From a virus: a stretch of 24,617 nt of DNA. The notes under the pieces are model-generated. The model saw only the letters and a list, made by a program, of their open reading frames with translations, ran no database searches and had not been told where the DNA came from. Below, one piece after another: positions 757 to 10,734 of the stretch. Both the position numbers and the translations under genes were made by a program. How positions within the stretch are numbered: position 1 is the first letter of the stretch; every line of letters starts with the position of its first letter. The stretch covers positions 1-24,617 of IMG/VR virus record IMGVR_UViG_3300009438_000023. One strand, written 5' to 3'.

Positions 757-1526
757 TGGATAAGATTTTACTTAAAAAGCATCCTCACGGCTTTAAAACT
801 GGAGGTAAAAGTCCAGAATTAAATCCCAATATCTTAGATTCTTGTTTATTAATTGAAAATGGAGAAGTTGTTGGATTTTTCCTTAAAAACTTGCCCAATA
901 AAATATCTAAGTTAGCGAATTTATGTGATACAGAGTTAAGGAGTAAAAGAGTTCCTAAATCTGTAATGAAAAGGTCGAGCGGCTTTACTGACCCAAGTAA
1001 TGAAGTATTGCAATACTCGACAATTATAGGCTCTATACCTCCTAAACCTCACATGAGAAGACCTTATCCATCTTTATCTTCTGTTCACCAAGTGAAGACG
1101 GCACAAAATTTTATAAAAGGTATGTTATTATTAGCTAAGGAAAGCGAAAAAATAATACAAGAATATATGCCAAAACAATATGGTTATATAAAAAATTTAT
1201 TTGATAATGAGGTGGATCCAAAGTGGAAAATTGGCAATATATTTACCAGCTCTATATCTAATTTTAATATTAACGCAGATTTTCACGTTGACAATGGAAA
1301 TATACCTAATTCTTTGAATGTTATTATCACAAAAAGAAAAGGTAGTGAGGGGAACAATTTGGTCGTTCCTGATTATGACGCAGTATTTGACCAATCAGAT
1401 AATTCAATGCTTGTCTACCCAGCTTGGAGAAATATGCACGCCGTAACTCCTATAAAAAATTATGCTAAAGGAGGTTATCGCAATTCACTAGTGTTTTATC
1501 CATTAAAAGCTTTTATTAACAAATAA
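756..1526 (+). CDS. putative TET/JBP-like 2-oxoglutarate/Fe(II) dioxygenase
   Basis: A 256-aa protein. The C-terminal third carries the expected metal and co-substrate residues of the double-stranded beta-helix oxygenases: HxD (H177, D179, in DFHVDNGN), a distal His (H228, in MHAVTPI) and a downstream Arg (R242, in YRNSLVFYP) for 2-oxoglutarate. The segment between them, GNNLVVPDYDAVF (199-211), resembles the 'GG.L.lP.yg' strand of the TET/JBP family, which oxidises 5-methylcytosine or thymine in DNA and is known from tailed phages. Residues 60-112 contain basic and aromatic positions that could form the DNA-facing part. If the assignment holds, the enzyme would hydroxylate bases in phage DNA. 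No DNA methyltransferase or glycosyltransferase is in the window, so substrate and any further modification are unknown. A protein hydroxylase of the same superfold is the main alternative. It overlaps the ParB-like gene by 1 nt and is 1 nt from the terminase small subunit. Confidence 0.65.
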   Translation: MDKILLKKHPHGFKTGGKSPELNPNILDSCLLIENGEVVGFFLKNLPNKISKLANLCDTELRSKRVPKSVMKRSSGFTDPSNEVLQYSTIIGSIPPKPHMRRPYPSLSSVHQVKTAQNFIKGMLLLAKESEKIIQEYMPKQYGYIKNLFDNEVDPKWKIGNIFTSSISNFNINADFHVDNGNIPNSLNVIITKRKGSEGNNLVVPDYDAVFDQSDNSMLVYPAWRNMHAVTPIKNYAKGGYRNSLVFYPLKAFINK

Positions 1527-1527
1527 T

Positions 1528-1911
1528 ATGACTAAAAAGAAGCCTAAACATTTGCATAAAGACGCTGGAAGACCTGAGGCAATAACGCCTGATAAAGTCA
1601 AAGAATTTAAAACAGCTTTTTCAAATGGACTTACTATCGATCAAGCTTGTATTTTCACAAAGATTTCAAAGCAGACTTATTATAATCATAGTGAAAGGCA
1701 CCCCAGTTTTGTTGACGAAATGAACGCAGTAAGAAAAAGCGTAGATATAAAGGCTAAAATGAATATTGTAAACAAGATAAAAGAAGGCGATGATATAAGC
1801 TCCAAATGGTGGCTAGAAAGGAAATGCAAAGAAGAGTTTAGTTTAAGAAATGAATTGACAGCCAAAGATGGTGGCGACCTATTGCCAAGAGTTATAAAAG
1901 ATGATCTCTAA
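1528..1911 (+). CDS. terS: terminase small subunit
   Basis: A 127-aa protein starting one base after the oxygenase stop and overlapping the large subunit start by 11 nt. A basic N-terminus is followed by AGRPEAITPDKV (13-24) and a predicted helix-turn-helix at about 34-55 (LTIDQACIFTKISKQTYYNH), a layout common in small terminases of the phBC6A51/Mu gp16-like kind. The middle forms an amphipathic helix suited to oligomerisation, and the C-terminus is acidic. Small subunits form rings that bind the packaging site and activate the motor. Position directly upstream of terL gives most of the confidence; sequence alone would say only 'small HTH protein'. Confidence 0.8.
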   Translation: MTKKKPKHLHKDAGRPEAITPDKVKEFKTAFSNGLTIDQACIFTKISKQTYYNHSERHPSFVDEMNAVRKSVDIKAKMNIVNKIKEGDDISSKWWLERKCKEEFSLRNELTAKDGGDLLPRVIKDDL

Positions 1912-3199
1912 TGATATTAAATTATCTCAAATAATAGCTCCATCGTTTCATCAAGTCCATAGAGATATTAGAGACGAGACTTACAACGAGTTTTGGCTAC
2001 GAGGCGGCAGGGGTAGCACTAAATCAACCTTTGTTGCAGAGCAAATAATCTTGGGTATAATAAACGACCCTACAGCCAATGCAATCGCTATCAGAAAAAC
2101 AGCTAATACAATAAGGACTTCGGTTTTAGAAACGCTATTATTCGCTATTGATATGCTAGGGGTGGATAAATACTTTGATCATATTAAATCCCCTTCTGAA
2201 ATAACTTATTTGCCAACTGGACAAAAAATAATTATGCGGGGTTTAGATGAGCCTAGCAAGTTAAAATCAATCAAATTAAGAAAAGGTTATTTTAAATATT
2301 TATGGTTCGAAGAAGGCGAGGAATACAGCGGCTTAGAAGAAATAAGAAGTGTCAAGCAATCAGTTTTAAGGGGTGGTGATAAGTTTGTTGAGTTCTTTAC
2401 CTACAACCCACCAAGAAACCCTAATCACTGGGTAAATAAAGTCCAAGATGAAATAAATGATGATAGATTAATTCATCATTCTAATTATCAAGAAGTCCCT
2501 AGACATTGGCTCGGTGAGAAGTTTTTTGCAGACGCAGAAAAGCTAAAGATAAATAACTTTGAAGCTTACCAGCACGAATACGGAGGAATACCAATCGGGA
2601 ATCCTGAAGAGATTATATTTAGTGGCAAATATGAGGTTGCTAAGTTTGAAACGCCACCAATAAACGATCTATATATGAATAGATTGTTTTATGGTGCAGA
2701 CTGGGGCTTTGCTAATGATCCTACAGTGTTAATTAGATTATTTATAATGGATAATAATTTATATATTGATAAAGAGATTTACGGATATCAAACACAAATA
2801 GATGACTTACCAGCCTTATTTGATCAAATACCTGATAGCAGAAGGTGGCAAATAAAAGCGGATAATTCAAGACCTGAAACTATATCTTATCTAGCTAGAA
2901 GGGGTTTTAACATAGAAGGGGCTTCAAAGTCTAGTGATAGGAGTGAGGGTGAGACTAAAAGCAGCTTAATAATTGATGGTATAGAATATATTAAAGGATT
3001 TAATAAAGTTATAATTCACGAAGACTGCAAGAAGGTTTTAGAAGAGTTTCAAAACTATTCTTATAAGATCGACAAAAACACTAAAGAAGTATTGCCAGTT
3101 GTTAATGATACTGCTGGCTGGGATCATGGGATAGATGCTATTAGATATGCTTTAGTGGATTATATCAAGCAAAATATATCTATCTGGGATGTCTTGTAG
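1901..3199 (+). CDS. terL: terminase large subunit, packaging ATPase and nuclease
   Basis: A 432-aa protein of normal length for the PBSX/Terminase_3 group. The N-terminal ATPase has Walker A GGRGSTKS (35-42), a Walker B strand ending YLWFEEGEE (133-141) with acidic catalytic residues at 137-138, and a coupling motif FTYNPP (166-171). The C-terminal RNase H-like nuclease shows its metal-binding acids: D267 in YGADWGFANDP, D321 in KADNSRPE and D409 in WDHGIDAIRYA. It pumps DNA through the portal and cuts concatemers. The start overlaps the terS end. Unusually, portal does not follow at once: an approximately 900-nt control region intervenes, beginning with a gene on the opposite strand whose stop lies one base beyond the terL stop. 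Confidence 0.95.
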   Translation: MISNDIKLSQIIAPSFHQVHRDIRDETYNEFWLRGGRGSTKSTFVAEQIILGIINDPTANAIAIRKTANTIRTSVLETLLFAIDMLGVDKYFDHIKSPSEITYLPTGQKIIMRGLDEPSKLKSIKLRKGYFKYLWFEEGEEYSGLEEIRSVKQSVLRGGDKFVEFFTYNPPRNPNHWVNKVQDEINDDRLIHHSNYQEVPRHWLGEKFFADAEKLKINNFEAYQHEYGGIPIGNPEEIIFSGKYEVAKFETPPINDLYMNRLFYGADWGFANDPTVLIRLFIMDNNLYIDKEIYGYQTQIDDLPALFDQIPDSRRWQIKADNSRPETISYLARRGFNIEGASKSSDRSEGETKSSLIIDGIEYIKGFNKVIIHEDCKKVLEEFQNYSYKIDKNTKEVLPVVNDTAGWDHGIDAIRYALVDYIKQNISIWDVL

Positions 3200-3200
3200 C

Positions 3201-3365
3201 CTATTTACTCCAATAATAACCAGCTTGCCTTTTTGATCTCTCAAGAGCATTGCTATTAATCAAGTTAATCAAACGACTGTAAGTCTCAGCAGCTTGACCA
3301 GTTAATTCTTGACCTTTAAATAATTCAATGATTGCTAATTCTTTTATTGTGTGTTGGATTTTCAT
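3201..3365 (-). CDS. 54-aa counter-oriented small protein
   Basis: An unbroken 54-codon frame, ATG at 3365-3363 and TAG at 3203-3201, the only convincing gene on the - strand. It starts MKIQHTIKEL and ends AGYYWSK. The product is mostly helical with a basic, aromatic tail; no family is recognised. Three things favour a real gene: it fits exactly between the terL stop and the promoter region, a near-consensus extended -10 promoter lies 30-58 bases upstream of its ATG, and its codon use looks like that of its neighbours. The leader is A-rich with no Shine-Dalgarno. Size and opposite orientation suggest a small regulator or moron-type protein, but that is a guess. Confidence 0.6.
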   Translation of the reverse strand: MKIQHTIKELAIIELFKGQELTGQAAETYSRLINLINSNALERSKRQAGYYWSK

Positions 3366-3394
3366 ATTTTTTTAATTTTATTAGTAATAAATCA

Positions 3395-3423
3395 AGTATA
3401 TCATATTTTTCTTAATATGTCAA
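3395..3423 (-). promoter_or_regulatory. sigma70 promoter for the 54-aa minus-strand gene
   Basis: Read on the - strand: -35 TTGACA (complement of 3418-3423, perfect consensus), a 17-nt spacer, and -10 TATACT (complement of 3395-3400, five of six consensus) preceded by TGA, giving an extended -10 TGnTATACT. Transcription should start near 3388, leaving a leader of about 22 nt before the ATG at 3365. The spacer holds an inverted repeat, CATATT (3402-3407) and AATATG (3414-3419), that could be an operator. Confidence 0.75.
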
Positions 3424-3424
3424 G

Positions 3425-3433
3425 TGCTATAAT
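3425..3433 (+). promoter_or_regulatory. extended -10 promoter facing the portal operon
   Basis: TGcTATAAT at 3425-3433 is a perfect extended -10 on the + strand. No good -35 sits 17-18 nt upstream (3404-3410 is only T-rich), so activity would depend on the extended element or on an activator. It lies immediately beside the -35 of the - strand promoter, so two polymerases could not occupy both sites. Transcription would start around 3440 and run into the candidate structured RNA and on toward portal. Confidence 0.5.
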
Positions 3434-3439
3434 GTATTT

Positions 3440-4010
3440 ACTATTAACTTAATGTTATGCTTTTAGATTTGAGCATTGTTTAGACGCAAAAAACCCTTCG
3501 ATTAAAAAGGGTTATTTTGAAAAGTCATGCTTTTGAGTTATCGCAAAGTCCTTTAACAAAATATGCTTAGAAGATTTTACAAGATTTTCACAAATGATGT
3601 AAAACGGGCAGGTGATTTTCTCCCTAATATAATATTACTTCTGAATCCTTGCTATAAAGCAATCACTGTCGGAGCATTACCTCCACTTTATCCTCCCAAA
3701 GCCAAGCATACGACCACTAGGAAGGTTTTATTTCACTTTGCAAACAGAACTTAGCGATCAGTTAAGGAGCTTAATTGTAAAATTTGGATAAGTTTATCAC
3801 TGTTAAGTCACTAGAATCCGACAACCACTTCTTTTAATTTGCTGGTTATTTTACAATGCGCTATTTTTTCCTTCTTATTCATTTAAACTTATACTTTAAA
3901 AATAAAGCGGTATTGCTACCGCCTTATAAAATAGCATATTGTATTGTTCTAGTGGAACAAGAAAGGACTGGTGATCAAGCCAGCTATTAATTTATATAAT
4001 TAATCATTTT
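3440..4010 (+). ncRNA. candidate large structured RNA between terL and portal
   Basis: About 570 nt with no convincing gene in an otherwise gene-dense operon, but rich in hairpins. Local stems include 3575-3581/3598-3604, 3606-3611/3620-3624, 3649-3653/3658-3662, 3882-3887/3895-3900, 3902-3912/3917-3927 (GCGGTA-TTGC-TACCGC core), 3944-3949/3955-3960, 3968-3972/3979-3983 and 3986-3992/3998-4004, the last followed by CATTTTTT, a plausible 3' end. Longer-range helices are 3549-3557/3761-3768, 3562-3568/3704-3710 and a 15-bp helix 3852-3867/3928-3943. G-U pairs (for example 3858 with 3937, 3972 with 3979) favour the + strand. The size invites comparison with ornate phage RNAs such as ROOL or GOLLD, but no family-specific motif was recognised. 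Seven-base complementarities arise often by chance in A+T-rich DNA, so individual long-range helices are weak evidence. A 63-codon frame at 3563-3754 lies inside and looks accidental. Confidence 0.4.
3488..3513 (-). terminator. hairpin terminator, best on the minus strand
   Basis: AACCCTT (3492-3498) pairs with AAGGGTT (3507-3513) over an 8-nt loop. On the - strand the stem is followed by a T run (complement of 3488-3493), a good intrinsic terminator shape. On the + strand only ATTTT follows, so it is weaker there. No - strand gene is visible to its right. It may insulate the divergent promoters from antisense transcription, act in both directions, or be the first helix of the RNA proposed next. 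Confidence 0.45.
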
Positions 4011-4058
4011 TTAATACTCAAGAACTTTTTTATTTTCTATTGATTTTTTTTTATCCAA

Positions 4059-4096
4059 TAATAGAGTAGCCAGCAGGGACGCTTAAAACTCTATTG
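4059..4096 (+). promoter_or_regulatory. hairpin abutting the portal start codon
   Basis: AATAGAGT (4060-4067) pairs perfectly with ACTCTATT (4088-4095), extended by a U-G pair (4059 with 4096); a further AGC/GCT pairing is possible inside (4068-4070 with 4081-4083). The stem ends one base before the portal ATG at 4097, and the only Shine-Dalgarno-like string, AGGGA (4075-4079), is in the loop, 17 nt upstream in linear distance. Folding would bring the two closer or hide the loop, so the hairpin may tune portal translation. The function is inferred. Confidence 0.4.
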
Positions 4097-5377
4097 ATGG
4101 CTAAGAAAAAAGATAATTATCACGCTTCCTATACCCTTAACGGATTAACCGACTTAGCTTTCGGTTTAGCTACTGATAAACAGGTATCAAGCACAGAAAC
4201 GCTAAGGCTCAATAATCGTACTTATCTAGTAAGTAATGACCGACCAACCCTATCTTATGCTTATTCTACTTACGGTATTATTCAAACTTTGATTGACCAG
4301 CCTATTGAAGATTGCTTCAAAGGTGGGATACAGATTAAATCTGAAATGTTAGATGATGATGATATATCTGACTTGCAAAAATTCTTACAAGATGAAGGGG
4401 TTTTAAATACCATAAAAGACGCCATGAGGTGGGAAAGGTTATTCGGTGGTAGTGGTATAATCATTAATACAGTTGGTAAGTCTGATAGCCCGCTAAGAAT
4501 AACTCAAATAAATAAAAATACTCCACTAGAGATTTACGCCGCTGATTTATGGGAGCTAAACAGATCAAGCACTGGTAGCTATACTGAAGAAAAGCCATAC
4601 ATTGCAGGAAGTGGGCAGCATGATTTCTATTATTATGGTAATAAACTAGATCCTTCAAGAGTTATTGCTCTAAAGGGCAAGACAGCTCCATCACTACTAA
4701 GACCACAATTGAGGGGTTGGGGTATGAGTGAGGTTGAAAGGGTTATTATTAGCTTTAATCAATTTCTTAAAAATAACAATGTTATATTTGATTTGCTAGA
4801 TGAGGCAAAGGTTGATGTTTACGGTTTAAAAAACTTCCACCAAACAATAGGAACGCCTGAAGGTACTCAAAAGGTATTGAAGTCAATTCAAATGATGAAT
4901 CAAGTTAAATCATATCAAAACGCTATTATCAAAGATAAAGATGATGATTACGAGCAAAAAACACAAACATTTACAGGATTAGCGGAAGTATTAAGAGAAA
5001 TAAGAATAGCTATTGCTAGTGATGTTAAAATGCCAATAAATAAACTCTTTGGGCAATCCGCAAGTGGCTTTGCATCGGGTGAAGATTCAATAGAAAATTA
5101 CAACTCTATGATTGAAGCAGAAATAAGAGGCAAGAACGATAACACTATAGCTAAGATAGTTAAGTTATACGCCAAGAAGTTATTTGATACTGAGGTTTAT
5201 GATATAAAGATTGGCTATAATCCATTAAGAGAGCTTAATTCAGAGCAAGAAGCCAATATGAATAATGTTGTGATAAATAATATCTTGTCAATGGTAGATA
5301 GGGGCGTAATCACAATAGAAGAAGCCACGCAAGAAATAAACAAGCGTAATATTTTAATGACTCAAATTAATGGTTAA
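4097..5377 (+). CDS. portal protein, DUF1073 family
   Basis: A 426-aa protein from the ATG at 4097; an in-frame TTG lies just before it at 4094, inside the hairpin. The signature region YGIIQTLIDQPIED (59-72), followed by FKGGIQIKS and WERLFGGSGIIIN (112-124), is characteristic of DUF1073/phage_portal_3 proteins. Portal forms the dodecameric ring at one capsid vertex through which terminase drives DNA and to which the neck attaches. Length is normal and the C-terminus (EATQEINKRNILM) has the expected helical character. The 3' end overlaps the next gene by 8 nt. It is the first gene after the control island, so its level could be set separately from terL. Confidence 0.92.
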   Translation: MAKKKDNYHASYTLNGLTDLAFGLATDKQVSSTETLRLNNRTYLVSNDRPTLSYAYSTYGIIQTLIDQPIEDCFKGGIQIKSEMLDDDDISDLQKFLQDEGVLNTIKDAMRWERLFGGSGIIINTVGKSDSPLRITQINKNTPLEIYAADLWELNRSSTGSYTEEKPYIAGSGQHDFYYYGNKLDPSRVIALKGKTAPSLLRPQLRGWGMSEVERVIISFNQFLKNNNVIFDLLDEAKVDVYGLKNFHQTIGTPEGTQKVLKSIQMMNQVKSYQNAIIKDKDDDYEQKTQTFTGLAEVLREIRIAIASDVKMPINKLFGQSASGFASGEDSIENYNSMIEAEIRGKNDNTIAKIVKLYAKKLFDTEVYDIKIGYNPLRELNSEQEANMNNVVINNILSMVDRGVITIEEATQEINKRNILMTQING

Positions 5378-6326
5378 AACATTAAAGCCAGTTATAACTC
5401 CAGCAATAGAAGAAGAAAGGATAGCTAAAGAGATACTAGCTTTCTTTAAAAAAAGCCTATTTCAGCCCTTACTTGATGAGTTAGAAGAAAAACAAAAGCT
5501 ATATTACAATTCAAGCGATGATTTGATAATTACAGCCATTAGAACTGGCAAGATAGGATACAAAGATAATTATTTTGCAGGTAATTTTAACATATCACTG
5601 ATCAAAGCTTTTAAAAATCTAGGTTTTAATTTTGACACAAGAACTAGAAGGATAAAGGCAAATATAAATGAATTGCCACCAACAATACAGCTAACAGTAG
5701 GTAGGGCAGTCCTAGCAGGTCAACAATTAGCTGAAAGCTTGGTTACTAAATTAGATAATATCAATATTGACGCATCAATAAAAGATTTTCAATTAAATAA
5801 AAAATATGTTGATATTTTAAATAGACTAGATAAAGATTTAGTAAAATCGGCTTCTAATGTTGTTGGATTAAATATAATCACAACAGAAGATCAGAAGCTT
5901 AAGATAGCTCAAGAGTTTACAAATAACTTAGAGTTATATATAAAAGACTTTGCAGAAAAGGAAGTTTTAAAGCTTAGGGGTCAGATTGAAAAAAATGTTT
6001 TTGCAGGCATAAGAGCAGAATCATTAAAAGATGATATATTAAAAGAATTTGGGATCAGTAAAAATAAAGCTAGTTTCTTAGCAAAACAAGAAATCGGTTT
6101 ATTTACTGCAAAATACAAAGAATCTAAATATTTAGAACTTGGTATTACTCAATATAAATGGTCAACATCTCGGGACTCAAGAACAAGAGAAGATCATAAG
6201 CAACTCAACGGCAAGATATTCAGCTTTGCTAATCCTCCTATAACTAATAAAGAAACAGGCGCACGCAACAATCCGCAAGAAGATTACGGTTGTCGTTGTG
6301 TAGCCATTCCAATTTTTGACGATTAA
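5370..6326 (+). CDS. minor head protein, Mu gpF / SPP1 gp7-like
   Basis: A 318-aa protein. The C-terminal domain has the family motif W264 with D269, R271, R273 and H276 (WSTSRDSRTREDHKQLNG), then a proline-rich stretch and the terminal Cys pair GCRC (307-310). The N-terminal two-thirds is helical and charged, including RTRRIKANINELPP (91-104). Such proteins enter the procapsid with the portal and are needed for assembly or DNA delivery. It overlaps portal by 8 nt and abuts the next gene with no gap (stop 6324-6326, ATG at 6327). Confidence 0.88.
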   Translation: MVKTLKPVITPAIEEERIAKEILAFFKKSLFQPLLDELEEKQKLYYNSSDDLIITAIRTGKIGYKDNYFAGNFNISLIKAFKNLGFNFDTRTRRIKANINELPPTIQLTVGRAVLAGQQLAESLVTKLDNINIDASIKDFQLNKKYVDILNRLDKDLVKSASNVVGLNIITTEDQKLKIAQEFTNNLELYIKDFAEKEVLKLRGQIEKNVFAGIRAESLKDDILKEFGISKNKASFLAKQEIGLFTAKYKESKYLELGITQYKWSTSRDSRTREDHKQLNGKIFSFANPPITNKETGARNNPQEDYGCRCVAIPIFDD

Positions 6327-6653: not shown

Positions 6654-7639
6654 TGAAAAAAGAAAATTCTATTTTAAAGGGTCAGACCTATACATCAAGA
6701 TTTCTTGAAGCTGGACTTGTTCAGTATGAAGATAGCTTGTCTATAATTAAGCAAGAGAATTTAGCCAAGATAGCTGAGAAGTTTAAGGGCGTCTATGTAG
6801 TTATAGAACATCAAGACTTAACAGAAGAAGATAGAGAGGAAATTGTAGGCTATGTATCTAAAGTATGGATGCAAGACGGCTGGGCTTGGTGCGATGTTGT
6901 TATAACTAGTCAAGAAGCAATAGATTTAATCAATGAAAAAGGATATTCGGTAAGTTGCGCATATAGTGCGAAGGTAATACCGACAGCAGGAACTTATCAT
7001 AATATAGCTTATGATAACGAGATAGTAGATTGTTTAGAAGCAATCCACTTGGCAATAGTGGCTAACCCTCGATATGAGGATGCCTTAATTTTAAAAAACT
7101 CAATTAAAGAAAAAGTTATGACTATTTTCAAATTTAAAAAAGAAGAGAAGAAAAACTCTATAAAAACTAAAGAGCTTGAAATAGAGAATGCTCTTTTTGA
7201 AATAGAAGAAGGCAAAACAATACCATTAAACGATATGGTAGAAGTTTACAAAAATGCCAAAGAGGAAGAAAAAAGAAAAGAGGAAGAAGAAAATAAAAAA
7301 GTCAATGCAGAAGATGAATTAGAAATTGACGGCAAGCTTATAAAGGTCAAAGACTTGGTATCTGCTTACAAAAACAAGATGAAGAAAAATGAAGAAGATG
7401 AAGAAGACAAGAAAAAGGAAAATGAAGAAGATGATAAGAAAAAAGAAGATGAGATGAAAAAAAATGAAGAAAAAGAAAAAAAGGAAAAAGAAGAGGTCAA
7501 AAAGAACTCTAAAGATTTTGAGGAAATAAAGGCAGCTAAGGCTAAATTTGAGAACTCATCAGAAGCGAGAAAGGTTAAAATATCAACTGACATTTCGCAA
7601 TTCGCACTTGGTAAGAGTCTATATGGCTCTTCAAAGTAA
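6653..7639 (+). CDS. DUF2213-type prohead protease fused to scaffold
   Basis: A 328-aa two-part protein. Residues 1-150 match what I know of DUF2213: VIEHQD (51-55, H53 a likely catalytic His), GYVSKVW (67-72), and GYSVSCAYSAKV (97-108) with S101 or S105 as candidate nucleophile, closing with AIVANPRYEDA. Residues 155-328 are a very charged Glu/Lys helix with two copies of a motif, GKTIPLNDMVEVYKN (187-201) and GKLIKVKDLVSAYKN (227-241), typical of scaffold segments. The enzyme would cleave itself and other head proteins during maturation while the tail templates the procapsid. The strand is nearly all purine at 7250-7520. An in-frame ATG at 7118 could give scaffold alone. It overlaps the upstream gene by 1 nt and precedes the decoration protein. 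Confidence 0.8.
   Translation: MKKENSILKGQTYTSRFLEAGLVQYEDSLSIIKQENLAKIAEKFKGVYVVIEHQDLTEEDREEIVGYVSKVWMQDGWAWCDVVITSQEAIDLINEKGYSVSCAYSAKVIPTAGTYHNIAYDNEIVDCLEAIHLAIVANPRYEDALILKNSIKEKVMTIFKFKKEEKKNSIKTKELEIENALFEIEEGKTIPLNDMVEVYKNAKEEEKRKEEEENKKVNAEDELEIDGKLIKVKDLVSAYKNKMKKNEEDEEDKKKENEEDDKKKEDEMKKNEEKEKKEKEEVKKNSKDFEEIKAAKAKFENSSEARKVKISTDISQFALGKSLYGSSK
7118..7639 (+). CDS. possible nested scaffold protein (internal start)
   Basis: The ATG at 7118 (residue 156 of the protease-scaffold) falls exactly at the boundary between the protease domain and the charged helical part. The A-rich leader AAAGAAAAAGTT precedes it. It would yield a 173-aa free scaffold, as in lambda C/Nu3 where scaffold is made from an internal start of the protease gene. 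The arrangement is inferred from the domain boundary and start position only; there is no strong Shine-Dalgarno. Confidence 0.3.
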   Translation: MTIFKFKKEEKKNSIKTKELEIENALFEIEEGKTIPLNDMVEVYKNAKEEEKRKEEEENKKVNAEDELEIDGKLIKVKDLVSAYKNKMKKNEEDEEDKKKENEEDDKKKEDEMKKNEEKEKKEKEEVKKNSKDFEEIKAAKAKFENSSEARKVKISTDISQFALGKSLYGSSK

Positions 7640-7671
7640 TTATTTTTTATTAACTAAATTTTTATAAGAAA

Positions 7672-8115
7672 ATGGCTCAAGAATTAAACCAATTTTCACA
7701 AACTACCGAGAAAGGTATTTTGGATTTGGCTTTCAATCCAAATGTTTTGAATGCAAAAGTAGCTAGTGGTTCAAGTGATACCCTAGTAGGTGGCTCAGTT
7801 GTAGTAATACAAGATGAAGCTGGAAGCATTGTAACTGTAGATAAAGCGGCTGCAATAACTAACGACATTTTCGGTGTTGTTCTTTACGAGGTTAAAAAAT
7901 CTTCTTTTGTTGCTGATGATTTTGTAAGGGTAGCCTTTGCAAACTCAGTTGTAATTATGGAAGCCTCCGCAGCTATTGCTAAAGGTGCAGCAGTTGAAGC
8001 CGTATTGACTGGTGATAAAATAGCTACTCAATCAACAGGAACTACTATCGGTCGTGCTTTGGATAAAGCTACTGCTGATGGCGACTTGGTAAGAGTTTTA
8101 ATCAAAACTAACTAA
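7672..8115 (+). CDS. capsid decoration / cement protein, DUF2190-like
   Basis: A 147-aa, Ala/Val-rich beta protein. It shows the run of short strands seen in DUF2190-type capsid cement proteins: GGSVVVIQDEAG, an IFGVVLYEV strand, then ASAAIAKGAAVEAV and a GTTIGRALDKATADGDLVRVLI ending. Proteins of this type trimerise on the capsid surface and stabilise it after expansion. Position between protease/scaffold and major capsid protein is the usual one. The start has an A-rich leader (TTTTATAAGAAA) without a clear Shine-Dalgarno, although the product should be abundant. Confidence 0.82.
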   Translation: MAQELNQFSQTTEKGILDLAFNPNVLNAKVASGSSDTLVGGSVVVIQDEAGSIVTVDKAAAITNDIFGVVLYEVKKSSFVADDFVRVAFANSVVIMEASAAIAKGAAVEAVLTGDKIATQSTGTTIGRALDKATADGDLVRVLIKTN

Positions 8116-8145: not shown

Positions 8146-9186
8146 ATGTCTAACAAGATTTTTAACATGATTGCAGGACTTGAAGCTGGCAATCTAGCTG
8201 ATGGCTCTTTGGTTTCATCTGTTCAAAACAGTAAATCAAAGGCTCTTTATAATGCAGCTCCAGCTGGTTATGAACAAACTATCGATACCCTAACCACTAT
8301 CAAGCAAGAAGTAATTCAACAAAAGTTTTACCAGTTCCCTATTGCTGATTATGTACCAGTAAAAGTGGGTGAAGGTGCTTTTTCCAATGAATTCCTTTAT
8401 TACACTAGCTTTGAATTATCGGGCAAGTTTGAAGAAGGTATTATGGGTCAAGGAACAGGAACTAGAAAGCCTAAATCTGATGTTGCTTATGATGCAAAAA
8501 GGCTCCCTACTTTCTTCTGGGCTAAAGAAGTTGATTATTCAATGGTCGAAGTCAATCAAGCCGCTAAGAATATGGGATCAGCTATATCTCTTATAACTCA
8601 AAGAGAGCAAGCTCAGAAAAAAAACTGGGATTTAGGTTTGCAGAAAGTTTCGGTACTTGGGGTTAGTGGTCTTGGTATGGAAGGTTTGTTGAACTTATCA
8701 GGCGTTACCAATAACACAGCAGCTATCACTAAATCAATATCAAGCATGACTTCAACAGAGATCAATGACTTGGTTAAAGATTTATTGGATGCTTACGCTG
8801 CATCTACTAATGAAACAGAATTGCCTAATACCTTTATCGTTCCTAGTGACGATCACAGGGGCTTAAGTCAATATGTTACAGGCACAGGCTTTTTTAATAA
8901 AACAAAGTTACAAGTATTATTAGAAGCTTTCCAAGCTGGTACTGATAATCCTAATTTTGCAATTAAGTCTCTAGCTTATGCTAAAAACTCAAGAAGTGGA
9001 TTAGGTGTTGAAAGATATGTTCTTTACAAAAACGACTCACAAACTTTAGAAATGAATATACCGATTGACTACACTTCTACTTCTTTTGGAACTTCTAATA
9101 GCTTTGATTTTAGCTCAGTTGCTTATGGTCAATTTACAGGTGTTATTGCTAAACGCCCTAAAGAGATTTTATATTTCAGTTACTAA
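8146..9186 (+). CDS. major capsid protein, DUF2184 family (HK97 fold expected)
   Basis: A 346-aa protein of typical size for this group. It has the N-terminal region before a long segment TLTTIKQEVIQQKFYQFPIADYVPV that matches the extended N-arm of DUF2184 capsid proteins, then the FSNEFLYYTSFELSG strand, and later NTFIVPSDDHRGL with VLLEAFQAG in the A-domain-like part. The C-terminus is VIAKRPKEILYF. It forms the icosahedral shell. Position directly after the decoration gene supports the call. The leader is A-rich without a clear Shine-Dalgarno. Confidence 0.88.
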   Translation: MSNKIFNMIAGLEAGNLADGSLVSSVQNSKSKALYNAAPAGYEQTIDTLTTIKQEVIQQKFYQFPIADYVPVKVGEGAFSNEFLYYTSFELSGKFEEGIMGQGTGTRKPKSDVAYDAKRLPTFFWAKEVDYSMVEVNQAAKNMGSAISLITQREQAQKKNWDLGLQKVSVLGVSGLGMEGLLNLSGVTNNTAAITKSISSMTSTEINDLVKDLLDAYAASTNETELPNTFIVPSDDHRGLSQYVTGTGFFNKTKLQVLLEAFQAGTDNPNFAIKSLAYAKNSRSGLGVERYVLYKNDSQTLEMNIPIDYTSTSFGTSNSFDFSSVAYGQFTGVIAKRPKEILYFSY

Positions 9187-9957: not shown

Positions 9958-10399
9958 TGATATTGTTATTAAAGATGATTTTACAGGTTTAGATAAATTA
10001 GAAAAAAATTTAAAGTCGCAAAAAGTGGCTAAGGTTGGTATTTTTGGCAATAAAAATGCAAGAGATGATGATACAACAAATGTCAAAGTAGGAATGAAGC
10101 ATGAATTTGGTTCTTTTAGTGAAGGCTTGCCTCGCAGGTCTTTTTTAAAAGATCCATTAGCTTTGAAAAGAAAGGAATTTCTAAAAAGAGCTAGGAAAAT
10201 AATTGATAAAGATATTTCTGATAGTGTTGATTCAGATCAAATACTAGAAAAAATAGGGGTATTGGGTGAAACTATTGTTCAAGAAGCCTTTGAAACTGGA
10301 GGCTTTGGAACTTGGAAACCTATATCAAGAAGTGGTTCGATATTAATTGATACGGGTCAATTAAGAAGCTCAATAACTTCTAAAGTAGAAAAATTATGA
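9950..10399 (+). CDS. tail completion / virion morphogenesis protein (HK97 gp10 / Mu gpG-like)
   Basis: A 149-aa protein with a good ribosome site (GGGGGAACAA before the ATG) and an 8-nt overlap with the adaptor gene. The string KVGIFGNKNARDDD (27-40) followed by VKVGMKHEFGSFSEGLPRRSFL is the family signature: a Gly strand, then 'HEFG', then 'PRRSFL'. The C-terminus has LIDTGQLRSSI, also shared by the group. These proteins sit in the neck or tail terminator zone and let head and tail join. Confidence 0.85.
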   Translation: MPSDIVIKDDFTGLDKLEKNLKSQKVAKVGIFGNKNARDDDTTNVKVGMKHEFGSFSEGLPRRSFLKDPLALKRKEFLKRARKIIDKDISDSVDSDQILEKIGVLGETIVQEAFETGGFGTWKPISRSGSILIDTGQLRSSITSKVEKL

Positions 10400-10734
10400 T
10401 GCCGCAAATTGCAAGTGCTTTTAATGGCTGGCAGCAGTCAATAACAATAGAAAAAATAACTTCATCTATTGTTGATTTTAAAAGAGTTGAAGCTGCGACA
10501 GTAATTGAATTTAAAGGCACGGTGCAGCCACTAAAAACTCAAGACTTGGCTATAAAGCCTATTGAGACTAGGGCTTGGCAATGGCTCATGATTCACACTA
10601 AAGATAATATAGAATTAAAGGTAGGCGATAAGATAACCTATGACAGCTTAAAATATAAAGTGATGAATAAGAATAATTACAAGCTAAATGGTTATTTTGA
10701 ATATCATATTGTAGAGGAATTTAATAATGGCTGA
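10396..10734 (+). CDS. head-closure (stopper)-like neck protein
   Basis: A 112-aa protein overlapping the previous gene by 4 nt (ATGA) and the next by 8 nt. A second ATG follows at 10399. It is predicted to be a small beta barrel: IEFKGTVQPLKTQDLAIKP, then a WQWLMIHTK strand, LKVGDKITYDSLKYKVM and YFEYHIVEEF. The 'VGD.I.Y....Y.V' pattern is typical of stopper or head-closure proteins in this gene position. Family membership is a judgement from pattern and synteny; a tail-completion role is possible. Confidence 0.65.
   Translation: MMPQIASAFNGWQQSITIEKITSSIVDFKRVEAATVIEFKGTVQPLKTQDLAIKPIETRAWQWLMIHTKDNIELKVGDKITYDSLKYKVMNKNNYKLNGYFEYHIVEEFNNG

Follow-up and report, generated by a model that had tools for sequence, protein, structure and literature searches.

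ROOL and GOLLD are phage RNAs that often, but not always, lie near tRNA genes or tRNA islands, and they were defined via covariance analysis (PMC12286853). The OOP RNA of phage lambda is transcribed leftward from pO as far as the terminator tO and overlaps cII by 52 bases (PMC5869508). The locus considered here lies in a virus record of 24,617 bases, the whole of which was analysed and is called the window below; its late genes are on the + strand, and about 900 bases separate terL from the portal gene. A sequence-only reading had proposed a candidate ornate + strand RNA in this gap, likened in length to ROOL and GOLLD. Like ROOL and GOLLD, the candidate is phage-encoded and occupies a gene-free stretch of several hundred nucleotides; unlike them, it has no match to either model, no tRNA was found in the window, and a strong predicted terminator lies inside the stretch. 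We tentatively read the gap, with somewhat less than even confidence, as a small moron-like accessory unit on the minus strand, against the direction of the late genes, most likely yielding a terminated RNA of about 90 nt.

Gene content of the gap

The genes and reading frames of the locus are as follows.

1528-1911, + strand: terS-like gene (gene list/domain search)
1901-3199, + strand: terL (Pfam Terminase_3)
3365-3201, minus strand: 54-aa gene for a predicted two-helix protein (gene-like codon usage; AlphaFold)
3423-3395, minus strand: promoter of the 54-aa gene, TTGACA-17-TATACT with TG before the -10
3563-3754, + strand: ORF of 63 aa, spurious-like (codon score -0.14 per codon)
3856-3990, + strand: ORF of 44 aa, spurious-like (codon score -0.13 per codon)
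4097-5377, + strand: portal (Pfam Phage_portal_3)
5370-6326, + strand: Mu-F-like head protein (gene list/domain search)
8146-9186, + strand: major head protein (gene list/domain search)

The gap at 3440-4010 between terL and portal is real and, as had been claimed, without a convincing gene, its sole ORFs of at least 40 aa scoring as spurious. Throughout 3440-4090 only the two + strand ORFs of 63 and 44 aa are present, and their codon usage is spurious-like where real genes average +0.25 per codon and the 54-aa minus-strand ORF reaches +0.17; searches of Pfam and PHROG with the 63-aa ORF gave no match. The claim does not hold for the terL-portal gap as a whole, as the 54-aa gene and its strong promoter lie just to the left on the minus strand. 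A tRNA/tmRNA search found none in the window and none in the upstream part of one near-identical contig. Very few of the 31 listed gene starts (window 91-24495) have a purine-rich, Shine-Dalgarno-like stretch upstream when inspected by eye, which suggests a host that makes little use of that signal.

The promoter of the 54-aa gene has 11 of 12 consensus matches and is among the two best in the 19 kb scanned, and the AlphaFold model of the protein (pLDDT 84, from an alignment of two sequences) consists of two helices. The same gene occurs in another phage (L030/L031), 80% identical as protein and 86% as DNA and with its promoter conserved; there, judged by eye, a terS-like gene follows it on the same strand. 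The DNA match to L030/L031 covers 3202-3423, from the stop codon to exactly the -35 box. Because the homology ends at the -35, promoter and 54-aa gene make up a mobile unit that does not include the gene-free stretch. The unit is absent from the slot of the other terL/portal relatives.

Strand of the signals and intrinsic terminators

The + strand had been preferred on account of G-U pairs, a preference that our counts reverse, with 22 G-U pairs in the minus fold versus 15 in the plus fold. Over 3484-3988 the minus strand folds at -123.0 kcal/mol (z -3.3) and the plus strand at -108.2 kcal/mol (z -2.4). The GC skew of the same interval is -0.09, and just 2 of 229 other windows reach -0.07. Taken by itself, 3899-3988 has a skew of +0.15, that is, a + skew opposite to that of the whole region; 3514-3898 has a skew of -0.15, similar to the minus skew of the 54-aa gene. 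Skew, fold energy, terminators and the promoter of the 54-aa gene together favour the minus strand over the plus strand. The signals that enter the argument are the following.

4021-3993, minus strand: weak candidate promoter of the small RNA, TTGAGT (4021-4016), 17-nt spacer, TATATA (3998-3993)
3988-3899, minus strand: candidate small RNA of about 90 nt with three hairpins (fold and terminator)
3984-3967, 3960-3944 and 3927-3902, minus strand: hairpins of the candidate RNA (predicted fold)
3927-3898, core 3922-3907, minus strand: first intrinsic terminator, GCGGTA-GCAA-TACCGC with a GNRA-type loop, tail TTTATTTTT
3898-3514, minus strand: gene-free, minus-skewed stretch (GC skew), including a predicted multibranch domain at 3758-3540
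3513-3486, minus strand: second intrinsic terminator, AACCCTT..AAGGGTT then TTTTTT, between the gene-free stretch and the promoter of the 54-aa gene
3425-3433, + strand: extended -10 TGCTATAAT, possible promoter for a portal leader (sequence)
4055-4100, + strand: hairpin predicted to enclose the portal start codon in the + mRNA (inverted repeat; 4040-4105(+) z -2.47)

Terminators were ranked on both strands with our own implementation of a d'Aubenton-type score, which combines hairpin energy per base with the T-tail. The site at 3922-3907(-) has the top score (6.7) of either strand in the whole 24.6-kb window, and 3511-3494(-) ranks third. The second-best terminator-like site, 10124-10140(+), is within a gene. 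Dinucleotide shuffles of 3200-4093 reach the top score on either strand in 13 of 1000 cases, and a single shuffle in 1000 carries two such terminators on one strand. A simple terminator scanner missed the 3922-3907(-) site, probably since A-U pairs run on into the T tract. On the + strand no terminator or attenuator of quality was found in 3200-4093, where the best score is -35.2; the T-tailed hairpin that had been noted at the + strand 3' edge (3968-3983, tail CTATTAATTT) is a poor one, and both good terminators are on the minus strand.

A candidate small RNA on the minus strand

The three hairpins of the candidate RNA are GCUGG..CCAGU, UUGUUC-CACUA-GAACAA and the first terminator. The minus strand of 3899-3988 folds at -24.1 kcal/mol (z -3.55), with none of 200 shuffles as stable, and 3870-3988(-) has a z of -4.6, with none of 300 shuffles as stable. 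The inverted repeats described earlier are present, for example 3852-3867/3928-3943 with 14 of 16 positions complementary. Folding beyond shuffled expectation was upheld locally, 3871-3960(-) ranking second of 1092 90-nt windows (an approximate rank, at least one window having an undefined value), and is only moderate over the full length, where two coding windows do better.

The predicted start of the RNA lies at about 3988-3985, downstream of a TTGAGT-17-TATATA promoter that is weak, with just 8 of 12 consensus matches, and falls under the scanner threshold. The position of the terminator about 90 nt past the probable start speaks in favour of a short transcript. It is plausible that the gap yields a non-coding RNA with local structure, and we infer the production of a small RNA together with its start, size and target. 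This best model leaves about 385 nt (3514-3898) and the transcript of the second terminator unaccounted for.

Relatives and the variable slot

The only contigs found to carry the region belong to the same phage and are nearly identical to the window (about 99.9% overall), with 100% identity over 905 nt. Searches with nhmmer, blastn and two single-sequence covariance models, in loci reached via terL, portal and the 54-aa gene, gave no homologue of the gene-free stretch, and DNA similarity against phages and plasmids gave nothing meaningful. Viral contigs were also scanned with four exact patterns taken from the RNA, and the other matches showed no alignment beyond the neighbourhood of the seed; the extra matches that we inspected are in unrelated coding genes, and a locus in L090 that at first resembled a second copy (nhmmer E 0.22) proved to be coding. 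A search of the genome collection for relatives yielded one distant terL only.

Comparison of relatives by computation shows that the slot between terL and portal varies in content. Among terL relatives of 65-76% identity it holds a 208-aa + strand gene (L005), minus-strand genes (L007) or small + strand genes (L009), and the portal relatives L036 and L071 have nothing inserted before portal. Other long gaps occur in relatives, and two examples adjoining terL (L171, L178) hold small ORFs. In a distant terL relative (L152), 847 nt at 7026-7872 have no ORFs of 70 aa; both strands of this stretch fold very stably (z -8.9 and -5.8, from 16 shuffles), and it has no Rfam match.

The near-identical contigs also differ in a TET/JBP-like dioxygenase gene (756-1526). 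Most of it, window 834-1508, is missing from two of them (L013 and L015) at a clean junction, the alignment jumping from 833 to 1509; in the L014 contig (L109), too, no copy stands upstream of terS, while L016 carries the gene. It is a presence/absence polymorphism within one phage. Upstream in L109, a 526-aa ORF at 1412-2992(-) has the motif NPPY, noticed by eye, which suggests a DNA methyltransferase, and the 526-aa ORF and the TET/JBP-like gene together hint at base modification.

Alternative readings of the locus

The proposal of a large + strand RNA of the ROOL/GOLLD type was not sustained: there is no Rfam match, the whole-length fold is unexceptional for this genome, and a strong internal terminator lies on the minus strand. 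All 4227 Rfam families were searched and nothing reached gathering level; at E<=10 the whole library gave only sub-threshold, chance-like matches in the region, with neither ROOL nor GOLLD among them. Run alone, the ROOL model (RF03087) matched nowhere in the window at E<=10, and control genomes were likewise without a match, which leaves this control uninformative; the GOLLD model (RF02032) alone also had none at E<=10. A single structured RNA of about 500 nt could instead be read from the minus strand (about 3988-3486), with the hairpin 3927-3902 as a structural helix or a leaky terminator. Its whole-length fold (z -4.1 for 3480-4030; z -3.1 to -3.3 for 3484-3988) speaks for it, as do a terminator at its 3' end and a long-range helix at 3758-3746/3552-3540(-), the most striking one, with a pair probability of 0.96 and within the domain 3540-3758. 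Coding windows of the same phage, however, fold better against their shuffles (10081-10585(+) z -5.0; 5545-6049(+) z -4.0), and the central domain 3540-3758(-), with a z of about -2.7 and 1 of 300 shuffles as stable, is equalled or exceeded in 7 of 224 same-size genome windows (about 3%). The strong internal terminator would moreover normally cut a long minus-strand RNA, and the sequence has neither an Rfam match nor a homologue. We consider such an RNA distinctly unlikely, and its stricter form, a previously undescribed phage RNA of this extent from a single phage in which a GNRA-capped structural helix would only look like an internal terminator, slightly less likely still.

The gap may also be what is left of gene cargo that was inserted earlier and has decayed, with the terminators insulating the 54-aa gene and no functional RNA at all. 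The slot is a cargo site at which relatives hold different genes, the minus GC skew of 3514-3898 resembles that of the 54-aa gene, and the stretch is without a homologue, all of which fit; but six-frame translations against the fetched phage loci match at the 54-aa region only, and neither the top-ranking terminator of the genome nor the strength of the local fold is accounted for by a decayed gene, so that we regard this explanation as unlikely. A long + strand leader of the portal operon would begin at the extended -10, TGCTATAAT, which is indeed present at the 5' edge (3425-3433) as had been reported, and would carry regulatory hairpins, including the one at 4055-4100 over the portal start, for which translation control of portal is possible. 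This -10 has no good -35 and is absent from the L030 copy of the neighbouring 54-aa unit; skew, fold and terminators favour the opposite strand, and the lack of a good + strand terminator or attenuator in 3200-4093 also weighs against a leader, which we find improbable. An element acting as DNA, namely a packaging start or replication origin built of hairpins, would suit a gene-free stretch that adjoins terL, yet there are no iterated direct repeats (just four two-copy families of 14-21 nt) and relatives with 65-76% terL identity lack the sequence, which makes this the case to which we give very little weight. It was the strand, the ranking of terminators and the use of coding windows from the same genome that moved the reading from a large RNA to a small terminated unit plus unexplained filler, a practical lesson in method.

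Proposed action and comparison with known systems

On the preferred reading, the accessory unit would occupy the variable slot of the packaging operon and be read against the late genes. Minus-strand transcription would begin near the promoter at 4021-3993, make two small hairpins and stop at the strong intrinsic terminator; the 54-aa gene with its independent promoter (3423-3201, minus) would adjoin the small RNA, the second terminator lying between them. The small RNA may then act in cis as an antisense RNA, pairing with the portal leader at a site some 110 nt ahead of the start codon. Cis-antisense pairing is the simplest mechanism, since any late + mRNA would contain, between terL and portal, the perfect complement of the RNA; the pairing could lead to cleavage or altered expression, much as lambda OOP RNA acts on cII. 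Alternatively, the RNA may act in trans on a host RNA. When the small RNA was scanned for duplexes with 31 phage gene starts, no pairing exceeded that of shuffles, so that a trans target within the phage is unsupported. If real, the small RNA would add to the phage RNAs known from the opposite strand, its setting being the packaging operon of a phage not in culture; its possible roles are the tuning of portal expression and an action on the host.

Lambda OOP and other phage antisense RNAs are short opposite-strand RNAs with their own promoter and intrinsic terminator (PMC5869508; PMC12197685); a short opposite-strand RNA ending at an intrinsic terminator is likewise predicted here, with a weak candidate promoter before it. 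OOP differs in that it overlaps the end of cII and was experimentally shown; the present candidate is a computational prediction with a weak promoter, and what it overlaps is an intergenic leader. For the 54-aa gene and its promoter the likeness is to the moron cargo of phages: as predicted from sequence, the gene has a promoter of its own, and it is found in differing contexts and is absent from relatives. The unit shares with such cargo the reverse orientation within a late operon, the variable slot and its occurrence in another phage context.
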